Shown here in pieces: positions 36,663 to 52,924 of a DNA stretch of 64,000 nucleotides. Position 1 is the first letter of the stretch. The number at the start of each line of letters is the position of its first letter. The stretch comes from an uncultured Sulfitobacter sp. (lineage in GTDB: Bacteria; Pseudomonadota; Alphaproteobacteria; Rhodobacterales; Rhodobacteraceae), in contig CAKZPD010000033.1 in the NCBI GenBank assembly GCA_937138475.1, positions 1 through 64,000 on the forward strand. The letters run 5' to 3'. The position numbers and the translations under genes are program-made. The notes under the pieces are model-generated. The model saw only the letters and a program-made list of their open reading frames with translations. It searched no databases and was not told where the DNA came from.

Positions 36663-37718
36663 ATGGCCGAAATTCAGCTTCGCAATCTCAACAAGCGTTG
36701 GGGCAATTTTGTCGGTGTAAACGACTTTAACCTGACCATCGCAGATCAAGAGTTTCTGGTGCTGCTGGGGCCATCGGGCTGTGGCAAGACCACCACGATG
36801 CGCATGGTTGCGGGCCTTGAGGATGCGACCGAAGGCGATATTCTGATTGACGGAAACCGCATCAACGATCTGGAGCCAAAAGACCGCGACGTGGCGATGG
36901 TGTTCCAAAGCTATGCGCTGTATCCGAACATGAATGTTTATGAAAACATTCGTTTCCCGCTGAAAGTGCGGGGCATTGATCCCGCCGAGCATCATGACCG
37001 CGTCATGCGCGCCTCTGCGATGGTTGAGCTGGATGAATTCCTTGAGCGCCGCCCGGCGGAATTGTCCGGCGGTCAGCGCCAGCGCGTGGCCCTTGCGCGG
37101 GCGATTGTGCGCAAGCCCAAGGTGTTCTTGATGGATGAACCCTTGTCCAACCTGGATGCCAAGCTGCGGGTATCGACGCGCGCGCAGATCAAGAACCTCT
37201 CGCATGAGCTGGCCGTAACCACCATTTATGTGACCCATGACCAGATCGAGGCCATGACCCTTGCCGACCGTGTGGTCGTGATGAAAAAGGGCGTGGTGCA
37301 GCAGGTCGGCACCCCGGTCGAGATTTATGACACGCCGGCCAATACCTTTGTCGCCAGCTTTATCGGCAATCCCGCCATGAACCTGATGGACGGCACGGTC
37401 AAAGACGGTGCCTTTGAGGCGGCCAACGTGCGTATTGCAGGCATAGATCTGCCCGATGGTCCTGTTACGCTGGGCTTTCGCGCCGAAGATGCGTCCATTG
37501 CCCAGGACGGGCAGGGGGCGATCACTGCGCCGATCTATACGATGGAATTGCTGGGCGACGCGACCATGGTCAGCGTCCGCGTGGGCGGCGCCTTGGTCAG
37601 CGTCAAGGCCGACAAGGCCTATCGCGCCGAGATCGGCGAGACTGTTTCGCTGAACGTGCCTGCTGAAATCTGCCACCTGTTCGAAGCTGGAACAGGGGCG
37701 CGTATCGAAGGGAAGTAA
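36663..37718 (+). CDS. ABC transporter ATPase, carbohydrate (MalK/UgpC) type
   Basis: Energises the importer encoded by the next three genes. The 351-residue protein has Walker A GPSGCGKTT (36-44), the signature LSGGQ (134-138), Walker B VFLMDEP and the switch His in YVTHDQIEAMTLADR. The C-terminal TOBE-like domain begins near 240, as in MalK/UgpC. ATG at 36663 gives the family-typical start MAEIQLRNL; the longer frame overlaps the operator region. It leads a 13-kb co-directional operon. Confidence 0.93.
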   Translation: MAEIQLRNLNKRWGNFVGVNDFNLTIADQEFLVLLGPSGCGKTTTMRMVAGLEDATEGDILIDGNRINDLEPKDRDVAMVFQSYALYPNMNVYENIRFPLKVRGIDPAEHHDRVMRASAMVELDEFLERRPAELSGGQRQRVALARAIVRKPKVFLMDEPLSNLDAKLRVSTRAQIKNLSHELAVTTIYVTHDQIEAMTLADRVVVMKKGVVQQVGTPVEIYDTPANTFVASFIGNPAMNLMDGTVKDGAFEAANVRIAGIDLPDGPVTLGFRAEDASIAQDGQGAITAPIYTMELLGDATMVSVRVGGALVSVKADKAYRAEIGETVSLNVPAEICHLFEAGTGARIEGK

Positions 37719-37790: not shown

Positions 37791-39017
37791 ATGTTTTTCA
37801 AGAAAGTGGCTATGGCCAGCGCGATGGCAATCGCGGCTGGAACCGCCTATGCCGATTGCAGCATTTCGGGACGTGTCAACGTGGTTGGCAACGAATTCCC
37901 GGCCATCCAGGCGGTGGGTGCTGCGGCGCAAGAATGCACCGGCGGCGAGGTCAAGTTGAACCTGACGGCAGATCACCAAAAGGTCAACGTTGCGGGCATG
38001 ACCGGCAACCCCGCCGAATATACATCGGCGATCATCGCCAACTCGTCCATCGTGGCGTTGATGAACGAAGACGTGATCCGTCCGCTGGATGATCTGGTCG
38101 CCCAGTATGGCCAGGGTCTGAAAAAGAACCAGCTGATCACCATCGACGGCAAGGTCATGGCCGTTGCCTTTATGGCCAACGCGCAGCACCTTGTTTACCG
38201 GGCCGACATTCTTGAGCAGGCTGGCGTTGAAGTGCCAACCACATATGAGGAATTGCTGGCAGCGGCCAAGGTCATCAAAGAAAAGGGCCTGATGGAAAAC
38301 CCAGTGGGTGGCCCGTTCAAGGCAGGTTGGAACCTCGCGCAGGAATTCAACAACATGTATATCGGTCATGGCGGTGAATTCTTCAAGACAGGCACACCCG
38401 AGGTGTCGATCAACAACGAAAAGGGCATCGCCACGCTTGAGATGATGAAAGCCCTGTCGGAATATATGAACCCCGACTTCTTGACCCATGATTCAAACGC
38501 CACCAACGCCGAATATCGTGCCGGCAACGTGGCACTGATGCACATGTGGGGATCGCGCGCAGCGACCATGACCGCGGCCGAGGGCGTATCGGATGAGGTC
38601 AAGAACGGCTTTGCCATTGCCGGTCCGCTGACCGTTGCAGGCGGCGACACACCGGCAACCACCCTGTGGTGGGATGGCTGGACCGTGTCCAAGAACATCT
38701 CGGACGAAGACGCAGCTGCGACCTTCCAGGCGCTGACCCACGCGATCCGCCCCGAGATGCTGAACGACGAAACATCGTCGTTGGCGGTATGGTTGATCGA
38801 CGGATATGAGCCAACAGAGGCGGCCAAGGGCGTCTTTGCTGCGGCGAATTCCGGATCGGTTCCATACCCAATGCTGCCCTACCAGGGTCTGCTGCATTCG
38901 GCGCTGGGCACCGAGCTGGCCGACTTTATGCAAGGCAAAGAAGATGCCGCCACAGCACTGGCGGACGTCGAAGCGGCCTATACCGCTGCGGCCAAAGAAA
39001 AAGGCTTTCTGCAGTAA
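37791..39017 (+). CDS. Extracellular solute-binding protein of carbohydrate ABC importer
   Basis: Periplasmic receptor, 408 residues. A signal peptide covers about residues 1-22 (MFFKKVAMASAMAIAAGTAYA), followed by a family-1-type binding protein with ADILEQAGVEVPTTYEELLAAA and a GNVALMHMWGS segment. GGGAGAG precedes the ATG at 37791. The ligand is unknown. Family-1 receptors usually bind sugars, polyols or glycerol derivatives, which with the HpsN-like dehydrogenase suggests a polyol-like or sulfonated polyol ligand (inference). A stem-loop follows the gene. Confidence 0.92.
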   Translation: MFFKKVAMASAMAIAAGTAYADCSISGRVNVVGNEFPAIQAVGAAAQECTGGEVKLNLTADHQKVNVAGMTGNPAEYTSAIIANSSIVALMNEDVIRPLDDLVAQYGQGLKKNQLITIDGKVMAVAFMANAQHLVYRADILEQAGVEVPTTYEELLAAAKVIKEKGLMENPVGGPFKAGWNLAQEFNNMYIGHGGEFFKTGTPEVSINNEKGIATLEMMKALSEYMNPDFLTHDSNATNAEYRAGNVALMHMWGSRAATMTAAEGVSDEVKNGFAIAGPLTVAGGDTPATTLWWDGWTVSKNISDEDAAATFQALTHAIRPEMLNDETSSLAVWLIDGYEPTEAAKGVFAAANSGSVPYPMLPYQGLLHSALGTELADFMQGKEDAATALADVEAAYTAAAKEKGFLQ

Positions 39018-39096: not shown

Positions 39097-40122
39097 ATGA
39101 AGCACAAGACTTTCTTCTGGTTTATCCTGCCCACGGCATTGGCGATGCTGCTGTTTATTGCGCTGCCGATTGTGTCTGTGATCACGCAGTCCTTGTTCAC
39201 CCCGCATGAACAGGTTTTCAAAACCGTCGAAAACTGCACGCCTTTCAAATGCACCCAGTCGACAACCATCGACCAGGAGGCAACCGAAGCCCTGCGCGAG
39301 GCCCAGCCCCTGGGCCGGTTTGTCGGGCTGAGCATCTATCTGGATCGCGGGCACCTGGCCTTTGGCGAGGTGGCGCAGGCCTGGCAAAGCCGCGACGGTT
39401 TCGGAGACTTTTTCAACAAGATCGGCAACCTGCCGTTCTATCGGGCCATGGCCTTTACACTGTCCTATACCTTTGTCGTGACGCCGCTGCTGATCATACT
39501 TGGGTTCATGATTGCGGTCGCTGTCAATTCCCTGCATCGGCACCTTAAGGGGTTGGTGATCTTCTTTTCCCTGCTGCCGATGATCGTATCGCCGCTGATC
39601 GGGTCGCTTGTCTTGTTCTGGATGGTCGACAGTCGCGGCGTGCTGGGCACGGGGCTGCAATGGCTGCTGTCTAATCCTGATCTGTCTCTCAAGGCGTCAA
39701 CCGGGCTGACCTGGATCATGTTGATGGTCTATGGGGTCTGGCATTCCGCGCCCTTTGCTTTTGTTGTCTTTTACGCCGGGCTTCAGACTTTGCCCAAGGA
39801 CACGCTCGAAAGCGCGATGATCGACGGGGCCACGCGCTGGCAGCAGATCCGTTATGTGGTGATCCCGCATCTGATGCCGCTGGTGACATTCGTGGCGCTT
39901 ATTCAGCTGATGGACAACTTCCGCGTGTTCGAACCAATCGTTGGCTTTAACGCCGAGGCGCATGCGCAATCGCTGTCGTGGTTCATCTTTAACGATCTGG
40001 GCGGCGAGACCCGTCTGCTGTCATCGGCCTCGGCGTCTTCGGTGCTGACCATCCTTGGTGTGGCCATTCTTTTGTCACCGGTGCTGATCCGCACCTGGCG
40101 CGACTTTAACTCAAAGGGCTGA
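39097..40122 (+). CDS. ABC transporter permease 1
   Basis: A 341-residue inner-membrane permease of the MalF/UgpA class. There are six or so helices (first: FFWFILPTALAMLLFIALPIV), a long periplasmic stretch between helices 1 and 2 (about 35-105), and the ATPase-contact EAA-type loop ESAMIDGATRWQQIRYVVIPHL. It is followed 3 nt later by the partner permease. The large periplasmic loop with two cysteines (47 and 52) is a distinctive feature. Confidence 0.92.
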   Translation: MKHKTFFWFILPTALAMLLFIALPIVSVITQSLFTPHEQVFKTVENCTPFKCTQSTTIDQEATEALREAQPLGRFVGLSIYLDRGHLAFGEVAQAWQSRDGFGDFFNKIGNLPFYRAMAFTLSYTFVVTPLLIILGFMIAVAVNSLHRHLKGLVIFFSLLPMIVSPLIGSLVLFWMVDSRGVLGTGLQWLLSNPDLSLKASTGLTWIMLMVYGVWHSAPFAFVVFYAGLQTLPKDTLESAMIDGATRWQQIRYVVIPHLMPLVTFVALIQLMDNFRVFEPIVGFNAEAHAQSLSWFIFNDLGGETRLLSSASASSVLTILGVAILLSPVLIRTWRDFNSKG

Positions 40123-40125
40123 TCC

Positions 40126-41007
40126 ATGTCTTCTAAAGCATTCAAGCAACCCTGGACCCTTCGGACGGCGTCGTCGGTCTTTGTGATCGCCTGGCTGATC
40201 CTCGCGGCCTTTCCGTTCCTGTGGACCCTGTGGGGCAGCTTCAAGGTCGAACTGGACTTTTTCTCAAAGGCCGATTGGCGCAACGCCCTGACCGGGGCGC
40301 GCACTATGGCCGAGCATGGCAGCTCCTTTACGGGCAACGGTTATAGCGGCGCCTGGGTGCAGGAAGAATTCTGGCGCGCGGTGTTCAATACGGCAATCGT
40401 GTGCTTTTTCACCGTTGCGATTTCCCTGACCATTGGCACGCTGGGCGGCTATGCGCTGTCGCGGTCGTCTTATCGCTATACTTTTTGGCTTTTGATCACG
40501 GCGCTGATCTTTCGGGCGATGCCGCCCATCACGCTGGTGGCCGGGTATCTGTTGCCGTTTTTCGAATGGAACCTGTGGGGGATCTTGCCAACCACCATCG
40601 TGGTTCTGGTCGCGATCAACCAGCCCTTTACCCTGTGGATGCTGCACAGTTTCTTTCAGAAGATCCCCAAAGAGCTGGACGAAAGCGCCAAGGTGGATGG
40701 CTGCACGCAATTCCAGGCGTTTCGCCACGTCATCATTCCGGTCATGTGGCCGGGGGTGATCACCACGGGGCTGTTCAGTTTCCTGCTGGCGTATAATGAT
40801 TTTGCGGTCACCTCCATGCTGCTCGAAAAAGAGAACCAGACCATGGTGCCCAAGATCGCCAGCTTTCTTGGCACCACGCAGACCGAAGGCAACGTGATGT
40901 TTGCCGTGGCTGCGGTGGTATCGGCAACGGCGCCGCTGTTCATTCTGGTGATGTTCTTTCAGCGTCAGATTGTATCGGGATTGACCCAAGGGGCGGTCAA
41001 AGGATGA
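40126..41007 (+). CDS. ABC transporter permease 2
   Basis: A 293-residue permease of the MalG/UgpE class. The EAA loop is DESAKVDGCTQFQAFRHVIIPV, and multiple helices include the C-terminal VSATAPLFILVMFFQRQIV. It completes the importer with the ATPase, receptor and permease 1. AAAGGGC lies upstream of the ATG. A 10-bp stem-loop separates it from the first enzyme gene, marking the transporter/enzyme boundary in the operon. Confidence 0.93.
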   Translation: MSSKAFKQPWTLRTASSVFVIAWLILAAFPFLWTLWGSFKVELDFFSKADWRNALTGARTMAEHGSSFTGNGYSGAWVQEEFWRAVFNTAIVCFFTVAISLTIGTLGGYALSRSSYRYTFWLLITALIFRAMPPITLVAGYLLPFFEWNLWGILPTTIVVLVAINQPFTLWMLHSFFQKIPKELDESAKVDGCTQFQAFRHVIIPVMWPGVITTGLFSFLLAYNDFAVTSMLLEKENQTMVPKIASFLGTTQTEGNVMFAVAAVVSATAPLFILVMFFQRQIVSGLTQGAVKG

Positions 41008-41083: not shown

Positions 41084-41626
41084 ATGAAGGGTTCACGTCC
41101 CGAGCAGGCAGAGCTGAGCCGCGATACCGATATGTCCAAGACCGAGGCCACCCGCGCCGTGATCGAGGGCATGGTGGATGGGCTGAATGATCACCGCATC
41201 GACGATATCGGCGCGTTTTTCGCCGATGGGTTCCGGTGGATGGGCAACCAGGGCTGCGGCACCAAGATCGGGTTGCAGGCCTTTCAGGACAATTGGCAAC
41301 GCCCGTTCCAGGCCGCCTTTTCCGATAAGGTCTGCGTTGATGAAGCGCGCCTTTTCATGGGGGAATGGGCCGCCGCCTTTGGCCGGCAAGAGGCCACCCA
41401 CAGCGGCCCCTTCATGGGTGTTGCCCCGACAGGCAAGCGGGTCGAGATCCGCTATATGGATTTTTGGAAAGTGGAGGACGGCAAGATCACCGACAATTGG
41501 GTGATGGTCGATTTTCCTCATGTGTTGGCTCAGCTTGGCGTCGATGTGTTCGGCGGCGAAGGCTGGGAAAGTTATGACCGGGGCGACAAGACCGCGCCCC
41601 GCCCGGATCAGGAAGGACAAGTTTGA
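41084..41626 (+). CDS. NTF2/SnoaL-like protein 1
   Basis: A 180-residue single NTF2-like domain, with the cone-fold pattern [25 protein letters not shown] and the terminal [21 protein letters not shown]. SnoaL-like proteins act as cyclases, isomerases or dehydratases on small polar substrates; the reaction here is unknown. GGAGAAG precedes the ATG. It overlaps the HpsN-like gene by 1 nt. The APTGK and DFW.VE.GKI pattern recurs in NTF2-like protein 2 of the same operon, indicating shared ancestry. Confidence 0.8.
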
Positions 41627-42954
41627 TGGCTGTGCAATATCTCAAGACAGGTAAACCGGAAACGGAGCGGGCCGAGGATGACGCCAAGACGCGGGCGTCG
41701 GTTGAAAGCATCCTGGCGGATATCGAGGCGCGCGGCGATGCCGCCGTGCGCGAGCTGTCGGAGAAATTCGACAAATATTCCCCCCCGTCGTTCCGTCTGA
41801 GCCAGGGTGAAATCGACGCGCTGATCGCGCAGCTGTCGCCGCAGGAAATGGCCGATATCCAGTTCGCCCAGGAACAGGTGCGCAATTTTGCACAGGCGCA
41901 ACGGGATTCGATGCTCGATATCGAGGTGGAAACCCTGCCGGGTGTCATCCTTGGCCACAAGAACATCCCCGTTCAATCGGTCGGGTGCTATGTGCCGGGG
42001 GGCAAATTCCCGATGGTGGCCAGCGCGCATATGTCGGTTGCCACCGCATCTGTTGCCGGTGTGCCGCGGATCATCGCCTGCACCCCGCCGTTCAACGGCA
42101 AGCCGAACCCGGCTGTGATTGCCGCCATGCATCTGGGCGGCGCGCATGAGATCTATGTCATGGGCGGCATCCAGGCGGTTGGCGCCATGGCGCTTGGCAC
42201 CGAAACCATTGACCCGGTTCATATGATCGTCGGTCCCGGCAATGCCTTTGTCGCCGAGGCCAAGCGCCAGCTGTTTGGCCGCGTCGGGATCGATCTTTTC
42301 GCTGGACCCACCGAAACCATGGTCATTGCCGACGAAACCGTGGATGCCGAGCTGTGCGCGACCGATCTGCTGGGCCAGGCCGAGCACGGCTATAATTCGC
42401 CCGCCGTTTTGCTGACCAACTCTCGCAAGCTGGCCGAGGACACCTTGGCGGAAATCGACCGCATCCTTGATATCCTGCCCACGGCGGGCACCGCCCGGAT
42501 CAGCTGGGAAGAATACGGCGAGGTCATCCTGTGCGACACCTATGACGAAATGCTGGCGGTGGCCGATGATATCGCCAGCGAGCACGTTCAGGTGATGACC
42601 GACCGCGACGATTGGTTCCTTGAGAACATGACCTGCTACGGGGCGCTATTCCTTGGGGCGCGGACCAATGTGGCCAACGGGGACAAGGTGATTGGCACCA
42701 ATCACACCCTGCCCACCAAAAAGGCGGGCCGCTATACCGGCGGGCTTTGGGTTGGCAAGTTCCTGAAAACCCACAGCTATCAAAAGGTCACAACCGACGA
42801 GGCCGCCGCCATGATCGGCGCCTATGGATCGCGTCTGTGCATGCTCGAAGGGTTTGTGGGCCACGCCGAACAATGCAACATCCGCGTGCGGCGCTATGGC
42901 GGGGTGAACGTGCCCTATGGCGAGGGCGCCCCTGCCCCCGTCGCGGCGGAATAG
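41626..42954 (+). CDS. HpsN/histidinol-dehydrogenase-like NAD-dependent dehydrogenase
   Basis: A 442-residue homologue of histidinol dehydrogenase, closest by motif to sulfopropanediol 3-dehydrogenase (HpsN). HpsN oxidises an alcohol to an acid in two NAD-dependent steps. Seen: [19 protein letters not shown], zinc ligands Gln251 and His254 in GQAEHG, catalytic Glu319-His320 and His413. The HisD zinc-ligand Asp position appears as Lys378 in [10 protein letters not shown], a segment typical of the HpsN branch. No his genes are nearby, so histidine synthesis is unlikely. No sulfolactate lyase (suyAB) is seen, so the substrate is open. ATG at 41626 is chosen over TTG at 41623 for its AAGGA spacing and coupling. 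Confidence 0.82.
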
Positions 42955-42960
42955 GGCACC

Positions 42961-44016
42961 ATGGCGATGGACAGGCATTCTGAGCACAAGGCGCTTTTGG
43001 CGCCGCTGCGGGCGGCGATGTATGATTTCGACATGGATGCGCTGCGCGCGGTCATGGATGATATCTGCGCCCCCGATTGCGTCTTTCATCTGGCCTTTCC
43101 GTTTGAGACCACGCAAGGCGCGCGGGCCTATCTGGATAAGGTCTTTGGGCCGCTTGTCCGGGCGGTTCCCGACCTTGAGCGCCGCGACTATATCGTCACA
43201 GCCGGCGGCACCCCCGAGGGGGCCGATTTCGTCGGCTGCGGCGGGTATTATACGGGAACCCATCAAAACCCTTGGCTGGATATTCCGGCGACCGGGCACA
43301 TGATGCACATGCGCTTTCATGAATTTTACGAATTCAAGGATGGCAAAATTGTCCAGATGCAGGCGCTTTGGGATATCCCCGAGGTGATGATGCAGGCCAA
43401 TGCCTGGCCCCTAAGCCCAAGCCTGGGCCGGGAATGGCATGTGCCGGCGCCGGCAAGTAATGATGGGATTGTTCCCGGCCCACATGATGCGGCCCAAGCC
43501 CAGACCACCTGCCAATTGATTATTGATATGTTGACCCATATGACGCGTCACCCTTTGCAGGGCGGCCCGGATGTGATGGAAATGGACCGGTTCTGGCACC
43601 CAAAGATGAGCTGGTATGGCCCGGCGGGGATTGGCACGGCGCGGGGGATCTCGGGCTTTCGCAACTGGCACCAGATCCCATTCCTTTCGGCCATGCCCGA
43701 CCGGGGGCAATACCCGGACGAAATCGAACACCATTTCTTTGGCGATCAGAATTATGCGGCGGTGACCGGTTGGCCGGATATGTGCCAGACGCTGTCCGGT
43801 GGGGGCTGGCTTGGCATTGCCCCCACGGGCCAAAAAATCACCATGCGCAGCCTTGATTTCTGGCGGGTTGAAAACGGCCTGATCCGGGAAAACTGGGTGC
43901 TGGTGGATCTGCTGCATATGTATGATCAGATCGGCGTCGATGTGCTGGCCCGGATGCGGGAATTCAACAAGGTCCGAACCGGGTTTGATCCAGAAACCGG
44001 GAGGGCCCTGACATGA
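42961..44016 (+). CDS. Double-NTF2/SnoaL-like protein 2
   Basis: A 351-residue protein with two NTF2-like domains. Residues about 1-150 contain LAPLRAAMYDFDMDALRAVMDD and KDGKIVQMQALWDIPEVM. Residues about 185-335 contain MDRFWHPKMSWYGPAGIG and PTGQKITMRSLDFWRVENG. The C-terminal domain resembles NTF2-like protein 1. It starts 6 nt after the HpsN-like stop and overlaps the SDR by 4 nt. No recognised catalytic triad; it may be a polyketide-cyclase-like isomerase or a binding protein for the pathway intermediate. Confidence 0.78.
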   Translation: MAMDRHSEHKALLAPLRAAMYDFDMDALRAVMDDICAPDCVFHLAFPFETTQGARAYLDKVFGPLVRAVPDLERRDYIVTAGGTPEGADFVGCGGYYTGTHQNPWLDIPATGHMMHMRFHEFYEFKDGKIVQMQALWDIPEVMMQANAWPLSPSLGREWHVPAPASNDGIVPGPHDAAQAQTTCQLIIDMLTHMTRHPLQGGPDVMEMDRFWHPKMSWYGPAGIGTARGISGFRNWHQIPFLSAMPDRGQYPDEIEHHFFGDQNYAAVTGWPDMCQTLSGGGWLGIAPTGQKITMRSLDFWRVENGLIRENWVLVDLLHMYDQIGVDVLARMREFNKVRTGFDPETGRALT

Positions 44017-44771
44017 CGTTACCGCAACTGCCGCCCTTTGACCTAAGCGGCAAGCGCGCGCTGGTGACCGGGGCATCGTCGGGGATCGGTCTGGCTTGCG
44101 CGGCGGGGCTGGCGCAGGCCGGGGCGCATGTGGTCTGCGCGGCGCGCCGGGCGCATCTGCTTGAGGACGCCGTGGCCCAGATGCAGGACGCCGGCCAATC
44201 CGCCGAAGCGCTTGCCATGGATCAAAGCGATCTGACCGCGCTGAACGCTCTGTTTGAAACACCCTTTGACGTGGTGATCAATTCTGCGGGCATGGCCCGG
44301 CATTCTGCGGCGGTTGAAACCCAGCCGGATGATTTCGATGCCGTGATGGATCTGAACCTGCGCAGCGCCTATTTCCTGTCTGTTGCAGCGGCCAAGGCGC
44401 TGATGCAGGCCGGGCGCGGCGGCAGCATTATCCACATCAGCAGCCAGATGGCCCATGTGGGCGGCATTGACCGCGCGCTTTATTGTGCCTCCAAACATGG
44501 GCTTGAGGGGATGATCAAGGCCATGGCCATCGAATGGGGCAAGGCCGGTATCAGGATCAATTCGATCTGCCCGACCTTCATCAGAACGCCGCTGACCGAA
44601 TCCACCTTTGCCGATCCCGAACGCCGGGCCTGGATCATGGACAAGATCAAGCTGCCCCGCGTGGGCGAGGTTCAGGATATCATGGGCGCGGCGGTTTATC
44701 TGGCCTCCGAGGCTTCGGCGATGGTCACGGGCACGTCGCTGCGTGTAGATGGCGGCTGGACCGCTGAATAA
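44013..44771 (+). CDS. Short-chain dehydrogenase/reductase
   Basis: A 252-residue classical SDR using NAD(P). TGASSGIG (19-26) binds cofactor, NSAG is at 90-93, and the catalytic set is Ser143/144, Tyr157 and Lys161 (YCASK). The C-terminus ends VTGTSLRVDGGW. It overlaps both neighbours (4 nt and 1 nt). A second alcohol oxidation or keto reduction in the catabolic pathway is likely. The position after Arg41 (CAARR) suggests possible NADP preference, which is weak inference. Confidence 0.9.
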   Translation: MTLPQLPPFDLSGKRALVTGASSGIGLACAAGLAQAGAHVVCAARRAHLLEDAVAQMQDAGQSAEALAMDQSDLTALNALFETPFDVVINSAGMARHSAAVETQPDDFDAVMDLNLRSAYFLSVAAAKALMQAGRGGSIIHISSQMAHVGGIDRALYCASKHGLEGMIKAMAIEWGKAGIRINSICPTFIRTPLTESTFADPERRAWIMDKIKLPRVGEVQDIMGAAVYLASEASAMVTGTSLRVDGGWTAE

Positions 44772-45787
44772 TGGCCAAGGTCACCTCAGTCGATGTGGCC
44801 AACAAGGCCGGGGTCAGCCGCTCAGCGGTCAGCCGGGTGTTTACGCCCGGCGCCTCGGTCAGCAAATCCACGGCTGAAAAAGTGCGCGCCGCTGCGCACG
44901 CCTTGGGGTATCGGCCCAATGTTCTGGCGCGGTCCTTGATCACCGGGCGCAGCCGGATCATCGGGTTGGTGGTGGCCTATCTGGAAAATCAATTCTATCC
45001 CGAGGCCATCGAACGTTTGTCGCGGCAATTGCAACAGCAGGGATATCATGTGTTGGTGTTCATGGCCTCGAACGATGACGGCGCCACCCAGCAGGTCATC
45101 GACGAATTGCTGGATTATCAGGTGGATGGGATTATTGCCGCCTCGGTCGGTCTGTCGAATACCCTGACGCAACGCTGCGAAGACCTGGGCATTCCGATTG
45201 TGCTGTTCAACCGGCGTCAGCGCGATGAACGCCTGTCCAGCGTCACATCAGACAATATCGCAGGTGGCCGCAAGCTGGCCGAGTTCCTGATCCGGGGCGG
45301 GCATCAGCGCATCGCCCATATTGCCGGCTGGGAAGGGGCGTCAACCCAGATCGACCGCGAGGCCGGATTTGTTCAGGGGCTGGCCCAAGGCGGGCAATCC
45401 TTGTTCGCGCGCGGCATGGGGAATTTTGACTATGCGACGGCGCAGCAGGCCGCCCGCGATATGTTCAGCACGCCGGATCGCCCCGACGCGGTGTTTGTGA
45501 CCAATGATCACATGGCCTTTGCGGTGATGGATGTGCTGCGCTTTGAGCTGGGCCTGAGCGTTCCCCAGGACGTGTCGGTGGTGGGCTATGACGATGTGAC
45601 CCTGTCCCACTGGCCCAGCTATGATTTGACCACTGTGCGTCAACCGGCGAACCGGATGGCGGCGGAAACAGTTCGTATATTGATGGATCGGTTGAACACC
45701 GGCCACAATTCACCGCAAAGCGTGGCGCTTGATGGCCCGCTGATTACGCGCTCGTCAGCGCGCAAACCCCAAGGATGGACGACATGA
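44771..45787 (+). CDS. LacI-family transcriptional repressor of the operon
   Basis: A 338-residue LacI/GalR protein. The N-terminal HTH (VTSVDVANKAGVSRSAVSRVF) and hinge helix (RPNVLARSLITGRS) precede a periplasmic-binding-like effector domain (about 62-338) that ends in the usual sugar-type fold. It overlaps the SDR by 1 nt and NTF2-like protein 3 by 4 nt, so it is expressed from inside the operon it should regulate. The LacI-type palindrome at 36566-36589 is its probable site. Confidence 0.9.
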   Translation: MAKVTSVDVANKAGVSRSAVSRVFTPGASVSKSTAEKVRAAAHALGYRPNVLARSLITGRSRIIGLVVAYLENQFYPEAIERLSRQLQQQGYHVLVFMASNDDGATQQVIDELLDYQVDGIIAASVGLSNTLTQRCEDLGIPIVLFNRRQRDERLSSVTSDNIAGGRKLAEFLIRGGHQRIAHIAGWEGASTQIDREAGFVQGLAQGGQSLFARGMGNFDYATAQQAARDMFSTPDRPDAVFVTNDHMAFAVMDVLRFELGLSVPQDVSVVGYDDVTLSHWPSYDLTTVRQPANRMAAETVRILMDRLNTGHNSPQSVALDGPLITRSSARKPQGWTT

Positions 45788-46752
45788 AAGGTTTTTCAAA
45801 CCGCTTTACCGATTTCCCCGATTACATCATCGGGATCACCAAGGAAATCTGGGAAGACCGCGGCATTGCCACGCTGCATGATTACTATAGCGACGACATT
45901 GTCGTGCGCTCTCCGGCCTCGGTCGTGGTGGGCAATAAATCGGTGATCGGCGCAACCATGGCCACATTGGCCGAATTCCCTGATCGCACCCTGTTGGGCG
46001 AAGACGTCATCTGGTCCGGCACCCCAGAAGAGGGCATGCTGTCGTCCCACCGCCTGCTGTCAACGGCGACCCATGTGCACAGCGGCATGTATGGCGAAGC
46101 GACGGGCAAAAAGCTGGTTTATCGCATCCTCGCCGATTGCCATGCGATCAACAACCAGATCAACGATGAATGGCTGATCCGCGATCAGGGTGCGATCGTG
46201 CGGCAGATGGGATGGGATCCCAAGGCCTATGCCGCCGACCTGATCGAACGCGAGGGCGGCTTTGAGGCCTGCGTGAAACCCTTGACCCCTGAAAACGATA
46301 TCGAAGGCCCCTATAAGGGACGCGGAAATGACAATGAATGGGGCGAGAAATACGCCGATATCCTGACGCGGATCATGGGGGCCGACATGGCCGTGATCGG
46401 TAAGGAATACGACCGGGCGGTGCAGACCGAATACCCCAGCGGCGAAACCGGCCACAGCTTTGGGTCGGCGGATCAATTCTGGATGGGGCTGCGCGCCTCT
46501 TTCCCGAATGCCAAATTCCAGATCGATCACCAGATCGGCCGCGACGATCCGCTGATGCCGCCCCGCGCGGCGGTGCGCTGGTCGCTGACCGGCACCCATG
46601 ACGGCTGGGGCCGCTTTGGCGCACCCACCGGCAAACAGGTCTATCTGCTGGGCATCAGCCACGCCGAATTCGGGCCATGGGGCCTGCGCCGTGAATACAC
46701 GCTGTTTGACGAAACTTCCGTGTGGAAACAGATCCTGCTGCAAACCGGTTAA
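45784..46752 (+). CDS. Double-NTF2/SnoaL-like protein 3
   Basis: A 322-residue protein with two NTF2-like halves. The first (about 1-135) has ITKEIWEDRGIATLHDYYSDDIVV and the second (about 195-320) has FWMGLRASFPNAKFQIDHQI and GAPTGKQVYLLGISHAEF. ATG at 45784 overlaps the lacI stop by 4 nt. With proteins 1 and 2 it brings the operon to five NTF2 folds. SnoaL-like esterase, isomerase or cyclase activity is possible but unproven. Confidence 0.78.
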   Translation: MKGFSNRFTDFPDYIIGITKEIWEDRGIATLHDYYSDDIVVRSPASVVVGNKSVIGATMATLAEFPDRTLLGEDVIWSGTPEEGMLSSHRLLSTATHVHSGMYGEATGKKLVYRILADCHAINNQINDEWLIRDQGAIVRQMGWDPKAYAADLIEREGGFEACVKPLTPENDIEGPYKGRGNDNEWGEKYADILTRIMGADMAVIGKEYDRAVQTEYPSGETGHSFGSADQFWMGLRASFPNAKFQIDHQIGRDDPLMPPRAAVRWSLTGTHDGWGRFGAPTGKQVYLLGISHAEFGPWGLRREYTLFDETSVWKQILLQTG

Positions 46753-46781: not shown

Positions 46782-47753
46782 ATGACACCTGAACAAATGG
46801 AACAGCGCATCGTCCGTTACGGCGATCTGCGCCCCTGCAAAACCGCCTTTATCGACGCCCATACCCCCGGCTCGAACCAAAAGGAAAACTTTACCATCAT
46901 CGGCGGCGGCGTCTCCGAAAGCCCCGATCAGCACGTCCACATCACCATTCCCCATGGGTTCAACATCGGCGCGGCGGGGCAGCCCCCCAAATGCCGCAAT
47001 TCGATGCACAACCACCGCACCGCCGAGGTGTTCTTTATCCTGTCCGGGCGCTGGCGGTTCTTTTGGGGTGAAAAGGGCGACGCAGGCGAGGTGATCCTTG
47101 AGCAGGGCGATATCTTTAACATCCCCACCAACATCTTTCGCGGGTTTGAAAACATCGGCACCGATTACGGCATGATCATGGCCGTTCTGGGCGGCGATGA
47201 TGCCGGCGGCGGCGTGATCTGGGCGCCGCATGTGATCGAAGACGCCAAGGCCCATGGCCTGGTGCTGGGCGACAATGGCAAGCTTTATGACAGCAAAAAG
47301 GGCGAAACCCTGCCGGCTGGCGTTGCCCCCATGCCGCTGTTGACCAAAGAAGAGCTGGCGCGCGTCGATTGCCCCACATCCATGCAGGTGGTGGGCGGTT
47401 ATGTGCGGCGCTATCTGGATATGGTGGCGCTGTCCAATGACGGCCCCGTCAAGGTGATCGGCGAAACCGGCATTATCCGCGACAAGCCGGGCTTTGAAAT
47501 CGACTTTATCACCCGTCAGAACGCGACCGAAACCAAACACAGCCATGACCGCCCGTCGGTCCTGATGCCGGTCAAAGGCCACTGGCGCGTCGATTGGGAT
47601 GGTGGCAGCGCGACGCTGGCCCCCGGTGACACCATGAGCGTGCCAGAAAACCTGGCCCATTGCGCCGTGCCCTCGATGACGGGCGAAGCGGCAATGTATC
47701 ATGTGGTTGCAACCGATGATCCGGCCGGTAAAACCTGGACCGGCAACAGCTAA
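46782..47753 (+). CDS. Bicupin protein (dioxygenase/isomerase-like)
   Basis: A 323-residue protein with two cupin domains. Cupin 1 has SMHNHRTAEVFFILSGRW, giving His76, His78 and Glu82, but the usual fourth ligand His is Arg120 (PTNIFRGFEN). Cupin 2 has TKHSHDRPSVLMPVKGHW with His253, His255 and His293 (VPENLAHCA) but lacks the Glu. The layout resembles gentisate dioxygenase/quercetinase-type bicupins with altered metal sites, so metal binding needs direct test. ATG at 46782 has AAGAAAG upstream. It is co-directional with the MetE-like gene 9 nt later. Confidence 0.8.
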   Translation: MTPEQMEQRIVRYGDLRPCKTAFIDAHTPGSNQKENFTIIGGGVSESPDQHVHITIPHGFNIGAAGQPPKCRNSMHNHRTAEVFFILSGRWRFFWGEKGDAGEVILEQGDIFNIPTNIFRGFENIGTDYGMIMAVLGGDDAGGGVIWAPHVIEDAKAHGLVLGDNGKLYDSKKGETLPAGVAPMPLLTKEELARVDCPTSMQVVGGYVRRYLDMVALSNDGPVKVIGETGIIRDKPGFEIDFITRQNATETKHSHDRPSVLMPVKGHWRVDWDGGSATLAPGDTMSVPENLAHCAVPSMTGEAAMYHVVATDDPAGKTWTGNS

Positions 47754-47762
47754 GGAAAAATC

Positions 47763-48890
47763 ATGACCGTCAAGACAACTCATGTCGGCAGCCTGCCCCG
47801 CAGCCAAGAGGTGGTTGATTTCATCTTCGCCCGCGAACATGAAAAACCATATGATTCAGCGGCCTTTGATGCCTGCATGAGCCAGGCGGTCATGGACACG
47901 GTGGCCAAGCAGGTGGCCGCCGGGGTCGATATCGTCAGCGATGGCGAAACCTCCAAAATTTCCTACGCCACCTATGTCAAGGATCGCTATACCGGCTTTT
48001 CCGGCGACAGCCCGCGCAACGCCCCCGGCGATCTCAAGCTGTTTCCCAGCTTTCTCAAACGCTTGGCGGATGACGGTGGCACGCCTCAATATGCCCGCCC
48101 CATGTGCACATCGCAGGTAACCTCCAAGGGCAGCGACGCGCTGGACAAGGATATCGCCAACCTCAAATCCGCAATGCAGGCCAATGGGGTCGAACGCGGC
48201 TTTATGAATGCGGCCAGTCCGGGGGTGATTTCCCTGTTCTTGCAAAATGATTTTTATCCCACACGCGACGCCTATCTCGCGGCGCTGGCCGATGTGATGA
48301 AGCAAGAATACGAAACCATCGTCGCCTCGGGTTTGGATCTGCAACTGGATTGCCCGGATCTGGCGCTGTCGCGTCACATGCTGTTTGCCGATCTCAGCGA
48401 TGCCGAGTTCCTGAAAATCGCCGCCAGCCACGTCGAGGCCCTGAACCATGCGCTGCAAAACGTGCCCCAGGACCGGGTGCGCATCCACATCTGCTGGGGC
48501 AATTACGAGGGGCCGCATGTGTGTGACATCGGCATGGACAAGGTGTTTGACACCTTGATGAGCGCCAAGGCCCGCTATGTGCTGTTCGAAACCTCGAACC
48601 CCCGCCACGCCCATGAATGGACCGTGTTCCGGGATCGCAAATCGGACATCCCCGATGACAAGGTGCTGGTGCCCGGCGTCGTCGATACCACCACCAATTT
48701 TGTCGAACACCCGATGCTGGTGGCCCAGCGGATCGAACGGTTCACCGATATCGTCGGGATGGACCGGGTGATCGCCGGCAGCGATTGCGGCTTTGGCACC
48801 TTTGCGGGATTTGGCGCGGTCGATCCTGATATCGCCTATGCCAAGCTGTCGGCCCTGGCCGAAGGCGCAGCCATGGCGGGGGGCAACTGA
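47763..48890 (+). CDS. Short MetE-like zinc enzyme (cobalamin-independent methionine synthase II family)
   Basis: A 375-residue TIM-barrel protein matching only the catalytic C-terminal half of MetE. The zinc ligands are all visible: His242 and Cys244 (IHICWGN), Glu276 (VLFETSNP) and Cys342 (AGSDCGFGTF). The N-terminus has TTHVGSLPRS. It is too short for folate-dependent methionine synthesis. Relatives such as epoxyalkane:CoM transferase use the zinc to activate a thiol. A thiol-dependent alkyl transfer or cleavage in the catabolic pathway is therefore inferred. It overlaps the RraA-like gene by 1 nt. Confidence 0.85.
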   Translation: MTVKTTHVGSLPRSQEVVDFIFAREHEKPYDSAAFDACMSQAVMDTVAKQVAAGVDIVSDGETSKISYATYVKDRYTGFSGDSPRNAPGDLKLFPSFLKRLADDGGTPQYARPMCTSQVTSKGSDALDKDIANLKSAMQANGVERGFMNAASPGVISLFLQNDFYPTRDAYLAALADVMKQEYETIVASGLDLQLDCPDLALSRHMLFADLSDAEFLKIAASHVEALNHALQNVPQDRVRIHICWGNYEGPHVCDIGMDKVFDTLMSAKARYVLFETSNPRHAHEWTVFRDRKSDIPDDKVLVPGVVDTTTNFVEHPMLVAQRIERFTDIVGMDRVIAGSDCGFGTFAGFGAVDPDIAYAKLSALAEGAAMAGGN

Positions 48891-49585
48891 TGGATCACCT
48901 GCTTTTGGATGTTCTGCGCAAGGTGGACACCCCCACGGTGTGCAACGCCATCGAAGTGGCCCAGGGCGCGCGCGGCTTTAATGCCTTTACCCGCGGCACG
49001 ATGCTGTGCTCTGACCCGGATGGCGGCGCGATGGTCGGCTATGCCCGCACCGCGCGGATCCGGGCGCTGACCCCGCCGACCGAGGCACCCGATGTGATCA
49101 AGGCCCGCCGCATGGCCTATTACGAATATATGTCGCAAGGGCCGCGCCCGGCGGTCTGCGTGATCGAAGACGTGGATTACCCAAACGCCATCGGCGCCTA
49201 TTGGGGCGAGGTCAACACCAACATCCACAAGGCCTTCGGCCTGTCGGGCGCGCTGACCAATGGGGTGATGCGCGATCTGGGCGATCTGCCGGATGGCTTT
49301 CCCGTGGTGGCCGGCTCCATCGGACCCAGCCACGGGTTTGTGCATGTGGTGGATTTTGACGCCCCCGTCCAGGTTTTCGGGCTAACGGTCGCCCCCGGCG
49401 CGCTGGTCCACGCCGATCGCCACGGCGCGGTTGTGGTGCCAGATGATGTGTTGCCCAAACTTGGCGATGCTATTGCCCAACTGATGGCTTCGGAACAGAT
49501 CGTATTTGCCGCCGTCAAAGGCAAGACAATCACCTTTGCTGAGTTTCAGCAGGCCTGGGCCGCGTTCGAAGCGGCGCGAACCTGA
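48890..49585 (+). CDS. RraA-like / HMG-aldolase-family protein
   Basis: A 231-residue member of the RraA fold family, which includes 4-hydroxy-4-methyl-2-oxoglutarate aldolase and oxaloacetate decarboxylase. The substrate/metal motif appears as ALTNGVMRD with Arg128-Asp129, after GAYWGEVNTNIHKAFG. The distal APGALVHADRHGAVVVP is well conserved. As the last gene of a catabolic operon, a terminal aldol cleavage or decarboxylation of a 2-oxo acid is more likely than RNase E inhibition. It ends 58 nt before a strong terminator. Confidence 0.82.
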   Translation: MDHLLLDVLRKVDTPTVCNAIEVAQGARGFNAFTRGTMLCSDPDGGAMVGYARTARIRALTPPTEAPDVIKARRMAYYEYMSQGPRPAVCVIEDVDYPNAIGAYWGEVNTNIHKAFGLSGALTNGVMRDLGDLPDGFPVVAGSIGPSHGFVHVVDFDAPVQVFGLTVAPGALVHADRHGAVVVPDDVLPKLGDAIAQLMASEQIVFAAVKGKTITFAEFQQAWAAFEAART

Positions 49586-49748: not shown

Positions 49749-50171
49749 TTAGGATTTGCGGCGCAGGCGAATCACGACATCAACGGATGCGATTTCCGCC
49801 CCGGCGGGCGCATTTGGCACCTGGGCAATCACCAGCTGGTCCGATGGCGCATCGGTCAGATAACCGTCATCTTCCCAATAGAAATGTGGGTGGTCATGGG
49901 TGTTGGTGTCAAAATAGCTTTTTGACCCATCGACCGTCACCTCTTGGATCAGCCCGGCATCGCAAAAGGCGCGCAGGGTGTTGTAAACCGTGGCCAAAGA
50001 CACCGCGTCGCCGGTGGTTTTTGCGGCTTCGAACAGGCTTTCGGCTGTGACGTGGCGATGTTGGCCATCCCCGACCAAAAGATTGGCCAGGGCCAGACGC
50101 TGGCGGGTTGGGCGCAGACCGCCCTTGGAAAGCCAGGCGGTAGGGCCGGTGGTGCAATGCTGTGTCGTCAT
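49749..50171 (-). CDS. irr: Fur-family iron response regulator
   Basis: A 140-residue Fur-superfamily protein. The winged helix is GLRPTRQRLALANLL and VSLATVYNTLRAFCDAGLI, and the dimer/metal region is DTNTHDHPHFYWEDDG. It lacks the C-terminal CxxC zinc sites of classic Fur. Its position divergent to fabA is characteristic of irr in Rhodobacteraceae. Irr integrates heme/iron status in alphaproteobacteria. No obvious iron control element palindrome was seen in the 177-bp divergent region. Confidence 0.88.
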   Translation of the reverse strand: MTTQHCTTGPTAWLSKGGLRPTRQRLALANLLVGDGQHRHVTAESLFEAAKTTGDAVSLATVYNTLRAFCDAGLIQEVTVDGSKSYFDTNTHDHPHFYWEDDGYLTDAPSDQLVIAQVPNAPAGAEIASVDVVIRLRRKS

Positions 50172-50348
50172 CCAAGCCTCAATTCACTTGTGATATGTAT
50201 AAGGTCACTTGGGCGGGTGTTTCAATTGATAATTGCGCGGCGAAGTCGTTGGTGCACATGGGCAAATGGTCAACGGCCCTTGCAGGATGGCTAGGCGCGG
50301 TGCTAGACCCGAAGCGAATTCAAAAAGACGAGCAGGAGACGCGCCAAG

Positions 50349-50858
50349 ATGGCCCCATACCCCACCAGTTTTGACAAGGAAGATCTGTTGAAATGCGCGC
50401 GCGGAGAGCTGTTCGGCCCGGGCAATGCGCAACTGCCGGCGCCGCCCATGCTGATGATGGACCGGATCACGGATATTTCCGGCGATGGCGGCGAACATGG
50501 CAAAGGCCATGTGGTGGCGGAATTCGATATCACCCCGGATCTGTGGTTCTTTGATTGCCATTTCCCCGGCAATCCGATCATGCCCGGATGCCTTGGCCTG
50601 GACGGGTTGTGGCAGCTGACCGGCTTTAACCTGGGCTGGCGCGGCTGGCTGGGGCGCGGCTATGCGCTGGGCGTTGGTGAGGTCAAGCTGACCGGCATGG
50701 TGCGCCCTGATCGCAAGAAACTGACCTATTTCGTGGATTTCACCAAGGCCATCCAGACCCGCCGCCTGACCATGGGCGTTGCCAATGGGCGCGTCGAGGC
50801 CGATGGCGAAACCATCTATCAAGTCACCGATATGAAAGTGGCCCTGTCCGAAACCTGA
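50349..50858 (+). CDS. fabA: 3-hydroxydecanoyl-ACP dehydratase/isomerase
   Basis: Dehydrates beta-hydroxydecanoyl-ACP and isomerises it to the cis-3 form, the branch point for unsaturated fatty acids. The 169-residue hotdog protein has the catalytic His in [14 protein letters not shown] and Asp in [13 protein letters not shown], with the conserved MLMMDRI helix. A purine-rich GAGCAGGAG ribosome site lies upstream. It starts the fabA-fabB-fabI operon, divergent from irr. Confidence 0.96.
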
Positions 50859-50893
50859 CCCCCCAAGCGGGATCGCATCAAAAGGAGATCGCC

Positions 50894-52123
50894 ATGCGCC
50901 GTGTCGTCGTGACAGGAATGGGCATCGTATCGTCGATTGGAAATAACACGGCCGAGGTTCTGACCTCGCTCAAATCCGGCACCAGCGGGATCGAAGCCTG
51001 CCCGGTCATGGCCGAACACGGCTTTCGCAGCCAGGTGGCCGGAACGCTCAAGATCGACCCGGCGGATCACATCGACAAACGGGCGCTGCGGTTCATGGGG
51101 CCGGGCGCGGCCTATGCCCATATCGCCATGGGCCAGGCCATACAGGATGCAGGGCTTGAGCCGGGCGATATCGTAAACCCCCGCACCGGGCTGATTGCCG
51201 GATCGGGCGGGCCGTCCACATCGGCGATGCTGACCGCGCATCAGACCGTTCTGGAAAAAGGCGCCCCCAAGCGGATCGGGCCGTTTTCTGTTCCCAAATG
51301 CATGTCCTCGACGGTTTCGGCCAATCTGAGCACCGCCTATCAGATCAAGGGGATCAACTATTCCATCACATCGGCCTGTTCGACCAGCCTGCATTGCATC
51401 GGCAACGCGGCCGAACAAATCATGATGGGCAAACAAGACGTGATGTTCGCCGGCGGCGGCGAGGAACTGGACTGGACGCTCTCGTGCCTATTTGATGCCA
51501 TGGGCGCCATGAGCAGCAAATACAACGACGCCCCGCAGACCGCTTCAAGGGCCTTTGACGCCGATCGCGACGGGTTCGTGATTTCGGGCGGCGGCGGGAT
51601 CGTGGTGCTCGAAGAGCTGGAGCACGCGCTGGCGCGCGGAGCAAAAATCTATGCCGAGGTGACCGGCTTTGCCGCGACCTCGGATGGTCATGACATGGTG
51701 GCCCCTTCGGGCGAGGGCGGCGAACGGGCCATGCGCCTTGCGCTGCAATCGCTGCCTGAGGGGCGCCGCGTGGGCTATATCAATGCCCATGGCACATCGA
51801 CGCCGGTGGGCGATGTGGGCGAAATCGAAGCGGTGCGCCGGGTGTTCGGACAGGGCAGCACACCGCCCGTCAGTTCCACCAAATCCATGACGGGCCACGC
51901 CCAGGGGGCGGCTGGCGCGCTCGAGGCGATTTTCTCGCTGCTGATGCTCGACAATGACTTTATCGCCAAATCGATCAACGTCGCGACGCTGGACCCGGCC
52001 TTGGATGCGTCAGAAATCGCCTTGCAGCGGGTGGACAACGCCGGGCTTGACAGCGTGATGACCAACTCCTTTGGGTTCGGTGGAACCAACGGGTCGATGA
52101 TCTTGTCGAAATATCTGGGCTGA
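50894..52123 (+). CDS. fabB: 3-oxoacyl-ACP synthase I
   Basis: Condensing enzyme elongating unsaturated acyl-ACPs with malonyl-ACP. In the 409-residue chain the triad is visible: Cys in TSACSTSLHC, His in YINAHGTSTPVGD and His in STKSMTGHAQGAAG. The C-terminal NSFGFGGTNGSM glycine-rich loop is intact. AAAGGAGATC precedes the ATG. It pairs with fabA 35 bp upstream as in other FabA/FabB-type bacteria. Confidence 0.96.
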   Translation: MRRVVVTGMGIVSSIGNNTAEVLTSLKSGTSGIEACPVMAEHGFRSQVAGTLKIDPADHIDKRALRFMGPGAAYAHIAMGQAIQDAGLEPGDIVNPRTGLIAGSGGPSTSAMLTAHQTVLEKGAPKRIGPFSVPKCMSSTVSANLSTAYQIKGINYSITSACSTSLHCIGNAAEQIMMGKQDVMFAGGGEELDWTLSCLFDAMGAMSSKYNDAPQTASRAFDADRDGFVISGGGGIVVLEELEHALARGAKIYAEVTGFAATSDGHDMVAPSGEGGERAMRLALQSLPEGRRVGYINAHGTSTPVGDVGEIEAVRRVFGQGSTPPVSSTKSMTGHAQGAAGALEAIFSLLMLDNDFIAKSINVATLDPALDASEIALQRVDNAGLDSVMTNSFGFGGTNGSMILSKYLG

Positions 52124-52132
52124 GGGGCGCAT

Positions 52133-52924
52133 ATGTCAGGGCTGTTACACGGAAAACGCGGGCTGGTCATGGGGGTGGCGAATGAACGCTCCATCGCTTG
52201 GGGCATCGCCAGGGCCATGGCCGATGCCGGTGCCGATCTGGCCTTTACCTACCAGGGCGAAGCCTTTGGCAAACGGCTTGAGCCACTGGCGGCCTCGGTC
52301 GGGTCGGATTTCATGGTGGATGTGGATGTCACCGATGACGCATCGCTCGACCGGGCTTTTGACCAATTGGCGGCCCGCTGGCCGACCATCGACTTTGTCG
52401 TGCACGCCATTGCCTATTCGGATAAATCCGAACTGACCGGACGGTTCCTGAACACCAGCCGCGAGAATTTCAAACATTCGTTGGATATTTCCGCCTATTC
52501 CTTCATTGAGGTTGCCCGGCGCGCCCATCCGATGATGGTGGAGAACGGCGGAACCCTCATGACGCTGACCTATCAGGGCAGCAACCGGGTCGTGCCCAAT
52601 TACAATGTGATGGGGGTTGCCAAGGCCGCTCTGGAAAGCGCGACGCGGTATCTGGCCAATGATCTTGGCCCCGAGGGCATCCGGGTAAACGCCATTTCCC
52701 CCGGCCCGATGAAAACCCTTGCCGGGGCGGCCATCGGCGGCGCGCGGAAGACCTATAAGCACACGGATATGAACGCGCCCTTGCGATCGAACGCCACGCT
52801 TGAGGCGGTTGGGGGAACGGCGGTTTACCTGGCCTCGGATGCTGGGGCCTGCACAACGGGTGAAATCATCCGCGTGGATGGCGGGTTTCATGTGCTGGGC
52901 ATGCCGCAGGCCGACAACCTGTAG
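52133..52924 (+). CDS. fabI: Enoyl-ACP reductase (NADH)
   Basis: Final reduction of each fatty-acid elongation cycle. The 263-residue SDR-type FabI has the diagnostic GVANERSIAWGIA cofactor segment. The Tyr-x6-Lys catalytic pair is in NYNVMGVAKAALES, and SPGPMKTLAGAAI is the substrate-binding loop. It follows fabB by 9 nt and ends the operon. Such FabI proteins are the usual target of triclosan-type inhibitors. A repeat element follows the stop. Confidence 0.95.
   Translation: MSGLLHGKRGLVMGVANERSIAWGIARAMADAGADLAFTYQGEAFGKRLEPLAASVGSDFMVDVDVTDDASLDRAFDQLAARWPTIDFVVHAIAYSDKSELTGRFLNTSRENFKHSLDISAYSFIEVARRAHPMMVENGGTLMTLTYQGSNRVVPNYNVMGVAKAALESATRYLANDLGPEGIRVNAISPGPMKTLAGAAIGGARKTYKHTDMNAPLRSNATLEAVGGTAVYLASDAGACTTGEIIRVDGGFHVLGMPQADNL

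Follow-up and report, generated by a model that had tools for sequence, protein, structure and literature searches.

In the window, i.e. the whole stretch of 64,000 nucleotides under analysis, the MetE-like protein encoded at 47763-48890 is tentatively proposed to be a pathway-dedicated methyl(alkyl)transferase of the core-MetE type, which would move its group from a catabolic intermediate to homocysteine, while the RraA-like protein encoded next to it would act as an aldolase at a separate step; a probability of roughly 0.38 is given to this reading. The two genes close a run of 13 genes on the plus strand, at about 36.7-49.6 kb, the spacing and common strand of which suggest a single operon, and ten of the 13 proteins were covered by a Pfam scan. 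The genes are as follows:

36663..37718, plus strand, ABC ATPase (ORF, named by eye; similar ORF in related loci)
37791..39017, plus strand, solute-binding protein of the ABC importer (ORF, named by eye; similar ORF in related loci)
39097..40122, plus strand, ABC permease 1 (ORF; similar ORF in related loci)
40126..41007, plus strand, ABC permease 2 (PF00528)
41084..41626, plus strand, single-domain SnoaL-like protein, SnoaL1 (PF07366)
41626..42954, plus strand, histidinol-dehydrogenase-like (HDH-like), HpsN-type dehydrogenase (PF00815; closest solved chain HpsN 8v35, E 8.3e-116)
42961..44016, plus strand, two-domain SnoaL-like protein, SnoaL2 (PF07366/PF12680)
44013..44771, plus strand, SDR oxidoreductase (PF13561)
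44771..45787, plus strand, LacI-family regulator (PF00356 and PF13377)
45775..46752, plus strand, two-domain SnoaL-like protein, SnoaL3 (PF07366/PF12680)
46782..47753, plus strand, bicupin, 323 aa (Cupin_2; upstream of the metE-like gene in 77/78 usable loci)
47763..48890, plus strand, MetE-like (core-MetE-type) protein, predicted zinc methyl/alkyltransferase, 375 aa (PF01717, zinc and homocysteine-site residues, AlphaFold model)
48890..49585, plus strand, RraA-like protein, predicted metal-dependent pyruvate-type aldolase, 231 aa (PF03737; profile alignment to 3noj)

As envisaged here, the cluster, controlled by its LacI regulator, would import and break down a polar compound from outside the cell, with the MetE-like protein as a stand-alone zinc enzyme that would hold homocysteine in the activated, zinc-thiolate form. 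A methyl group (or a different small alkyl) would then pass from a pathway intermediate to homocysteine, giving the demethylated intermediate and methionine (or S-alkyl-homocysteine). The metal-dependent RraA-like aldolase would act at a different step, probably a later one, and release pyruvate or a keto acid like it. Homocysteine as the acceptor, the methyl donor and the order of the steps are what we infer, and neither a methyl donor nor a corrinoid protein nor a methylated substrate could be identified in the cluster. The bicupin gave weak profile matches against the PDB (best E 1.4e-4). Within this one catabolic-looking cluster, SnoaL-like proteins are encoded three times (41084-46752), twice in a two-domain form. 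As for the flanks, read by eye from the ORF list, a 726-aa ORF resembling a fused alpha/beta 2-oxoacid dehydrogenase E1 follows an acyl-CoA dehydrogenase gene at 34265-36445, and a minus-strand gene for a Fur-like regulator and a plus-strand run resembling fabA-fabB-fabI lie 3' of the cluster at 49749-52924.

The earlier note had described, between 47763 and 49585, a complete MetE-type zinc site in a 375-residue protein devoid of an N-terminal half, the gene of which shares 1 nt with an RraA-like gene, and this observation on the gene pair is confirmed. The ORF 47763-48890 encodes a protein in which Meth_synt_2 is the sole Pfam family found (PF01717; residues 168-346, E 1.7e-11, 44.5 bits for a cut-off of 21), and its TGA (48888-48890) ends in the A with which the rraA ATG begins, a single base being shared with the ORF 48890-49585. 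Upon alignment to the solved MetE and MesD chains, H242, C244, E276 and C342 fall on the zinc-ligand positions. All four are invariant in an alignment of 17 sequences, the other members of which are 45-87% identical to the window protein; a broader collection of 125 rows, with relatives at 25-39% identity among them and some genes entered twice, has H242, C244 and C342 in 125/125 and E276 in 120/125, the exceptions being three Pro, one Ala and one Asp. On the strength of these ligand residues, the protein presumably binds zinc.

Besides the zinc site, the MetE-like protein retains the triad that binds homocysteine or methionine, since S10, E62 and D196 are invariant in the 17 aligned sequences, down to 45% identity. 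In E. coli, Ser433, Glu484 and Asp599 have their side chains near the amino and carboxyl groups of the amino acid (homocysteine, methionine or selenomethionine), and their equivalents in 3RPD are Ser22, Glu73 and Asp188, as given in an excerpt of PMC7857596. S10 aligns with the Ser of the MetE 'GS', and the correspondence of E62 to Glu73 and of D196 to Asp188 was counted along the alignment with an offset of 3, taken to reflect the tag in the deposited chain. Regarding the fold, the AlphaFold model (mean pLDDT 89.1, pTM 0.90) finds in the PDB, by Foldseek, MesD 3rpd as its best match (TM 0.70 on the query, 0.76 on the target) and MetE 1t7l as the next one (TM 0.74 on the query). A canonical MetE has two domains, more than 670 aa and an N-terminal Meth_synt_1, whereas the window protein has 375 aa and PF01717 alone. 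Like the core methionine synthases (MesA-D type), it consists of one catalytic domain that carries the HCEC zinc ligands, together with the equivalents of Ser433, Glu484 and Asp599. Of the curated methionine synthase models of NCBIfam, PRK04326 scores best, at 85.9 bits where 406 would be required. The MesX profile (PF08908) has no match in the window's genome, but the 14 control genomes gave none either; no MesX domain occurs among the ten cluster proteins scanned.

The RraA-like protein contains PF03737 as its sole Pfam family (E 4.1e-16). Its profile alignment to the HMG/CHA aldolase 3noj places E107, R128 and D129, which are invariant in 14 RraA-like sequences, on positions 102, 123 and 124, of which 102 and 124 have a metal role. 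The residues expected of an RraA-family class II pyruvate aldolase of the HMG/CHA type, i.e. Arg123 and acidic residues at 102 and 124, are found, with Glu in place of Asp at 102; the ligK_PcmE equivalog of NCBIfam scores 23.5 bits for a cut-off of 304.5. HpcH/HpaI enzymes and HMG/CHA aldolases both make pyruvate-type cleavages, and because HpcH/HpaI-type genes stand in at some loci, the RraA-like protein is read as an aldolase. Such a gene accompanies the set in three loci (L114, L181 and L182; PF03328 in the L181 copy, which was scanned), and weaker HpcH matches (28% and 38%) lie 3' of the metE-like gene in L210 and L214. In the P. putida aldolase, the R123K substitution lowers kcat 181-fold, according to an excerpt of PMC5065237. 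RraA-like enzymes are not aldolases alone, an RraA-like KDGR dehydratase/decarboxylase being described in a portion of PMC8563752.

A scan of GTDB species genomes gave 515 stretches encoding a MetE-like relative, of which the best 80, closely related to one another, were kept; the cluster recurs in these best 80 of 515 loci, mostly from marine Rhodobacteraceae, and the source organism of the window is itself probably marine. Of the 77 close loci usable for the count, i.e. with at least 1.6 kb downstream of the metE-like gene, 69 carry rraA 3' of it, on the same strand and within 2.5 kb. An alpha/beta hydrolase gene lies between the two in 54 of the 69; the remaining 15 show a 1-nt overlap (six loci), a 4-nt overlap (four), an 18-nt spacing (three) or longer gaps (two), so that the 1-nt overlap of the window is a minority arrangement. 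Gene calls in the fetched loci were made with an ORF finder of our own and BLAST to the proteins of the window and of other loci, and these junction lengths are approximate because starts were trimmed to the match. On the 5' side, the cupin gene precedes the metE-like gene in 77 of the 78 usable loci. Some related clusters contain extra genes, either for a GMC oxidoreductase adjoining the dehydrogenase (L041:1941-3455), for a PNPOx-like protein (L060), or for an amidase-like protein together with a second HDH (L071, L197 and L210).

The co-occurrence of the MetE-like and RraA-like families, which the earlier note had put forward as a check, is borne out in 147 genomes, one per genus, where 21 contain both, 12 the MetE-like gene alone, 2 the RraA orthologue alone and 112 neither (Fisher p = 5e-15, the genomes being treated as independent). 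Taken gene by gene, 33 genomes carry the MetE-like gene (at least 66% identity), 23 the RraA orthologue (at least 336 bits) and 34 the cupin (at least 451 bits), these thresholds having been set after the lists were viewed. The counts leave aside eight genomes with weaker MetE matches alone, one partial cupin match (G035) and six genomes with RraA matches of 224-263 bits, among which G123 carries the MetE-like gene. The cupin accompanies 30 of the 33 MetE bearers (Fisher p = 1e-23), and the bicupin is a tighter partner of the MetE-like gene than RraA is; all these p values overstate the case because the genomes are related. Within the 21 genomes having both, the MetE-like and RraA genes lie within about 1 kb of each other in 16 and elsewhere in five. 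The proposed coupling to RraA thus stands in that the two co-occur in a conserved cluster, but not as an obligate unit, 12 of the 33 MetE genomes being devoid of this RraA orthologue. An exclusive MetE-RraA unit of two enzymes is rejected, given the hydrolase gene in between in 54/69 loci and the absence of RraA, or its replacement by HpcH, at several loci. It is also contradicted by two loci with cupin, hydrolase and RraA but no MetE-like gene, i.e. L198, where the whole cluster is otherwise retained, and L197, where no SnoaL match occurs either. A third locus, L199, retains the cupin with no MetE or RraA match nearby. As the MetE-like gene is missing from these otherwise similar clusters (L197-L199), its step is dispensable or replaceable there, a point against the preferred reading.

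Beyond the close loci, a profile search at E <= 1e-60 finds the MetE-like family in 73/386 genomes of the class and 29/397 of the phylum, counts that include the genome and family of the window. Among 60 distant neighbourhoods, 21 contain parts of the cluster and 39 have no BLAST match to cupin, HDH, SnoaL or RraA, some of these apparently solitary loci being cut by contig ends; with 39 of 60 distant loci lacking cluster genes, the MetE-like enzyme has uses outside the cluster, which likewise counts against the preferred reading. In two 1.4-Mb genomes, at 50% identity, rraA lies directly 5' of the metE-like gene, with cupin and SnoaL3 beyond (L160 and L164), and this reversed adjacency supports the pairing; L161 resembles this arrangement, without an rraA match.

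Some neighbours concern one-carbon metabolism. A SAM-dependent methyltransferase gene lies directly 5' of the metE-like gene in 17 of the 80 close loci, as identified from a scan of the L034 copy. In family f13, possibly sphingomonads, an O-demethylase homologue lies at most about 5 kb from the MetE-like gene in four of the eight loci fetched (L176, L177, L178 and L183), the scanned L183 copy reaching 852 bits on the NCBIfam syringate O-demethylase model (cut-off 800). The same four loci have a FolD-type gene near the MetE-like gene (L183 copy scanned), and L176-L178 also an MTHFR-like gene (L178 copy scanned); the MetE-like fragments of two f13 loci, L124 and L125, were kept outside the neighbour comparison. 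Together, the O-demethylase, FolD, MTHFR-like and methyltransferase neighbours point to methyl chemistry, as a suggestion rather than a proof. The f13 association comes from related genomes and is missing in the other four of the eight loci, and it may be a coincidence.

The HDH-like dehydrogenase provides a further handle on the substrate. The specificity of HpsN for DHPS is tied to a G-R-Y-A/S-H motif, the His126 of which meets the sulfonate, as set out in part of PMC11382572. Instead of GRY(A/S)H with His126, the window protein has GKFPM, a motif kept in 110 of the 117 related HDH genes that are at least 66% identical, a count in which six loci enter twice and two genes are unparsed. DHPS (sulfonate) catabolism is accordingly rejected as the role of the cluster: the sulfonate-binding His of HpsN is replaced by Met, and the cluster should therefore not be labelled as such. 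In its own right, GKFPM is a third active-site motif next to GRY(A/S)H of HpsN and GSAPL of HisD, and the gene is likely to be misannotated as histidinol or sulfopropanediol dehydrogenase.

Regarding methionine synthesis in the window's genome (G000), the MetE-like gene is the only one with PF01717. A PF02574 protein encoded on G000:C3 passes the betaine--homocysteine methyltransferase model (574.6 bits; cut-off 338) and lies beside an MtgC-like corrinoid protein (194 bits, under the cut-off of 370), and two PF00809 proteins are present, one of which may be an ordinary dihydropteroate synthase. Together they are consistent with a methionine synthase of the split corrinoid type, of which they would be candidate parts; PF02965, the activation domain of MetH, has no match in this genome. 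P. inhibens has a core-MetE homologue, not necessarily orthologous to the window gene, and is nevertheless a methionine auxotroph when mtgCDE is mutated, as reported in an excerpt of PMC12478193. With such candidate parts at hand and a homologue apparently insufficient in P. inhibens, housekeeping methionine synthesis is judged an unlikely role for the MetE-like protein, in agreement with the earlier note.

Several other readings have to be weighed against transfer to homocysteine within the pathway. That the protein is a MetE-fold lyase, hydrolase or decarboxylase acting on an intermediate, with no group transferred to a thiol, is unlikely. Its model also matches uroporphyrinogen decarboxylase in Foldseek, more weakly, further residues invariant in the 17 sequences outside the known sites (W245, Y248, P251, H252, H282, H284, W286 and H316) suggest a distinct pocket, and the loss of E276 in distant relatives (L117-L120) indicates that the wider family drifts; against this, none of the 17 sequences has lost either the zinc or the homocysteine site, and uroporphyrinogen decarboxylase is not known to have such a site. 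Homocysteine-site residues can persist after a functional change, which is a point against the preferred reading. Somewhat more doubtful is the reading of the earlier note, in which a zinc-activated thiol (the intermediate, glutathione or another small thiol) would alkylate or cleave the substrate and homocysteine would be uninvolved. The complete zinc site and the conserved cluster membership agree with it, and a precedent exists in epoxyalkane:coenzyme M transferase, a zinc thiol alkyltransferase of the MetE superfamily, but an amino-acid-binding triad would be unneeded for a thiol that is not an amino acid; with this triad invariant, and some relatives found beside methyl-metabolism genes, the exclusion of homocysteine is not supported.

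An auxiliary methionine synthase serving under cobalamin limitation, whose place in the cluster would be fortuitous or regulatory, is improbable: the zinc and homocysteine residues are kept, and cobalamin limitation is named as a possibility for such homologues by the authors in an excerpt of PMC12478193, but the P. inhibens auxotrophy, the conserved position with a LacI regulator and an importer, and scores far under the methionine synthase cut-offs all argue otherwise. As to the substrate, an O-methylated cyclitol-like compound (gadusol, mycosporine) is a very remote candidate. The HDH would oxidise the C5 hydroxymethyl, the cupin would cleave the diketone ring, the MetE-like enzyme would take the O-methyl and RraA would cut the ring-opened product, a 4-carboxy-4-hydroxy-2-oxo acid; the chemical logic of the aldolase family, of the diol-oxidising HDH type and of the bicupin fits on paper, but no catabolic gene set for such compounds is among the literature matches listed.

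To come back to the preferred transfer from a pathway intermediate to homocysteine, a methyl transferase dedicated to the pathway would extend into catabolism a family of enzymes known for making methionine. It would also mark the substrate as methylated, thereby narrowing the search for an algal compound. A stricter version, decidedly speculative, is a demethylase independent of both folate and cobalamin, in which the core-MetE enzyme would move a methyl from a small catabolic intermediate directly to homocysteine, the donor being for example a methoxy-enol such as that of gadusol or a mycosporine; if true, it would link the breakdown of marine algal metabolites to methionine supply in roseobacters. 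The HDH with its third motif gives a second handle on the pathway and warns against DHPS annotation of the cluster. The literature matches listed, with most subscription journals outside their scope, include no description of the gene set, and the terms 'histidinol', 'SnoaL', 'methionine synthase' and 'LacI' are all absent from the main text of PMC9870897.

Compared with known systems, the MetE-like protein resembles the core methionine synthases MesA-MesD/core-MetE (PMC7857596, PMC7005905) in having the MetE catalytic domain alone, HCEC and the homocysteine-site residues, MesD being 18% identical in structural alignment, and differs from them in that its gene belongs to a catabolic-looking cluster. 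Likewise, the RraA-like protein shares its family and the aligned positions 102/123/124 with the HMG/CHA aldolase (3NOJ; PMC5065237), unlike which it has Glu for Asp102 and a ligK_PcmE score far under the cut-off. HpsN, the (R)-DHPS 3-dehydrogenase (8v35; PMC11382572), is the closest solved relative of the cluster HDH, in which GKFPM takes the place of GRY(A/S)H and its sulfonate-binding His126. The likeness to epoxyalkane:coenzyme M transferase is one of superfamily, both being linked to zinc and thiol alkyl transfer, and the homocysteine triad of the MetE-like protein argues for an amino-acid thiol.
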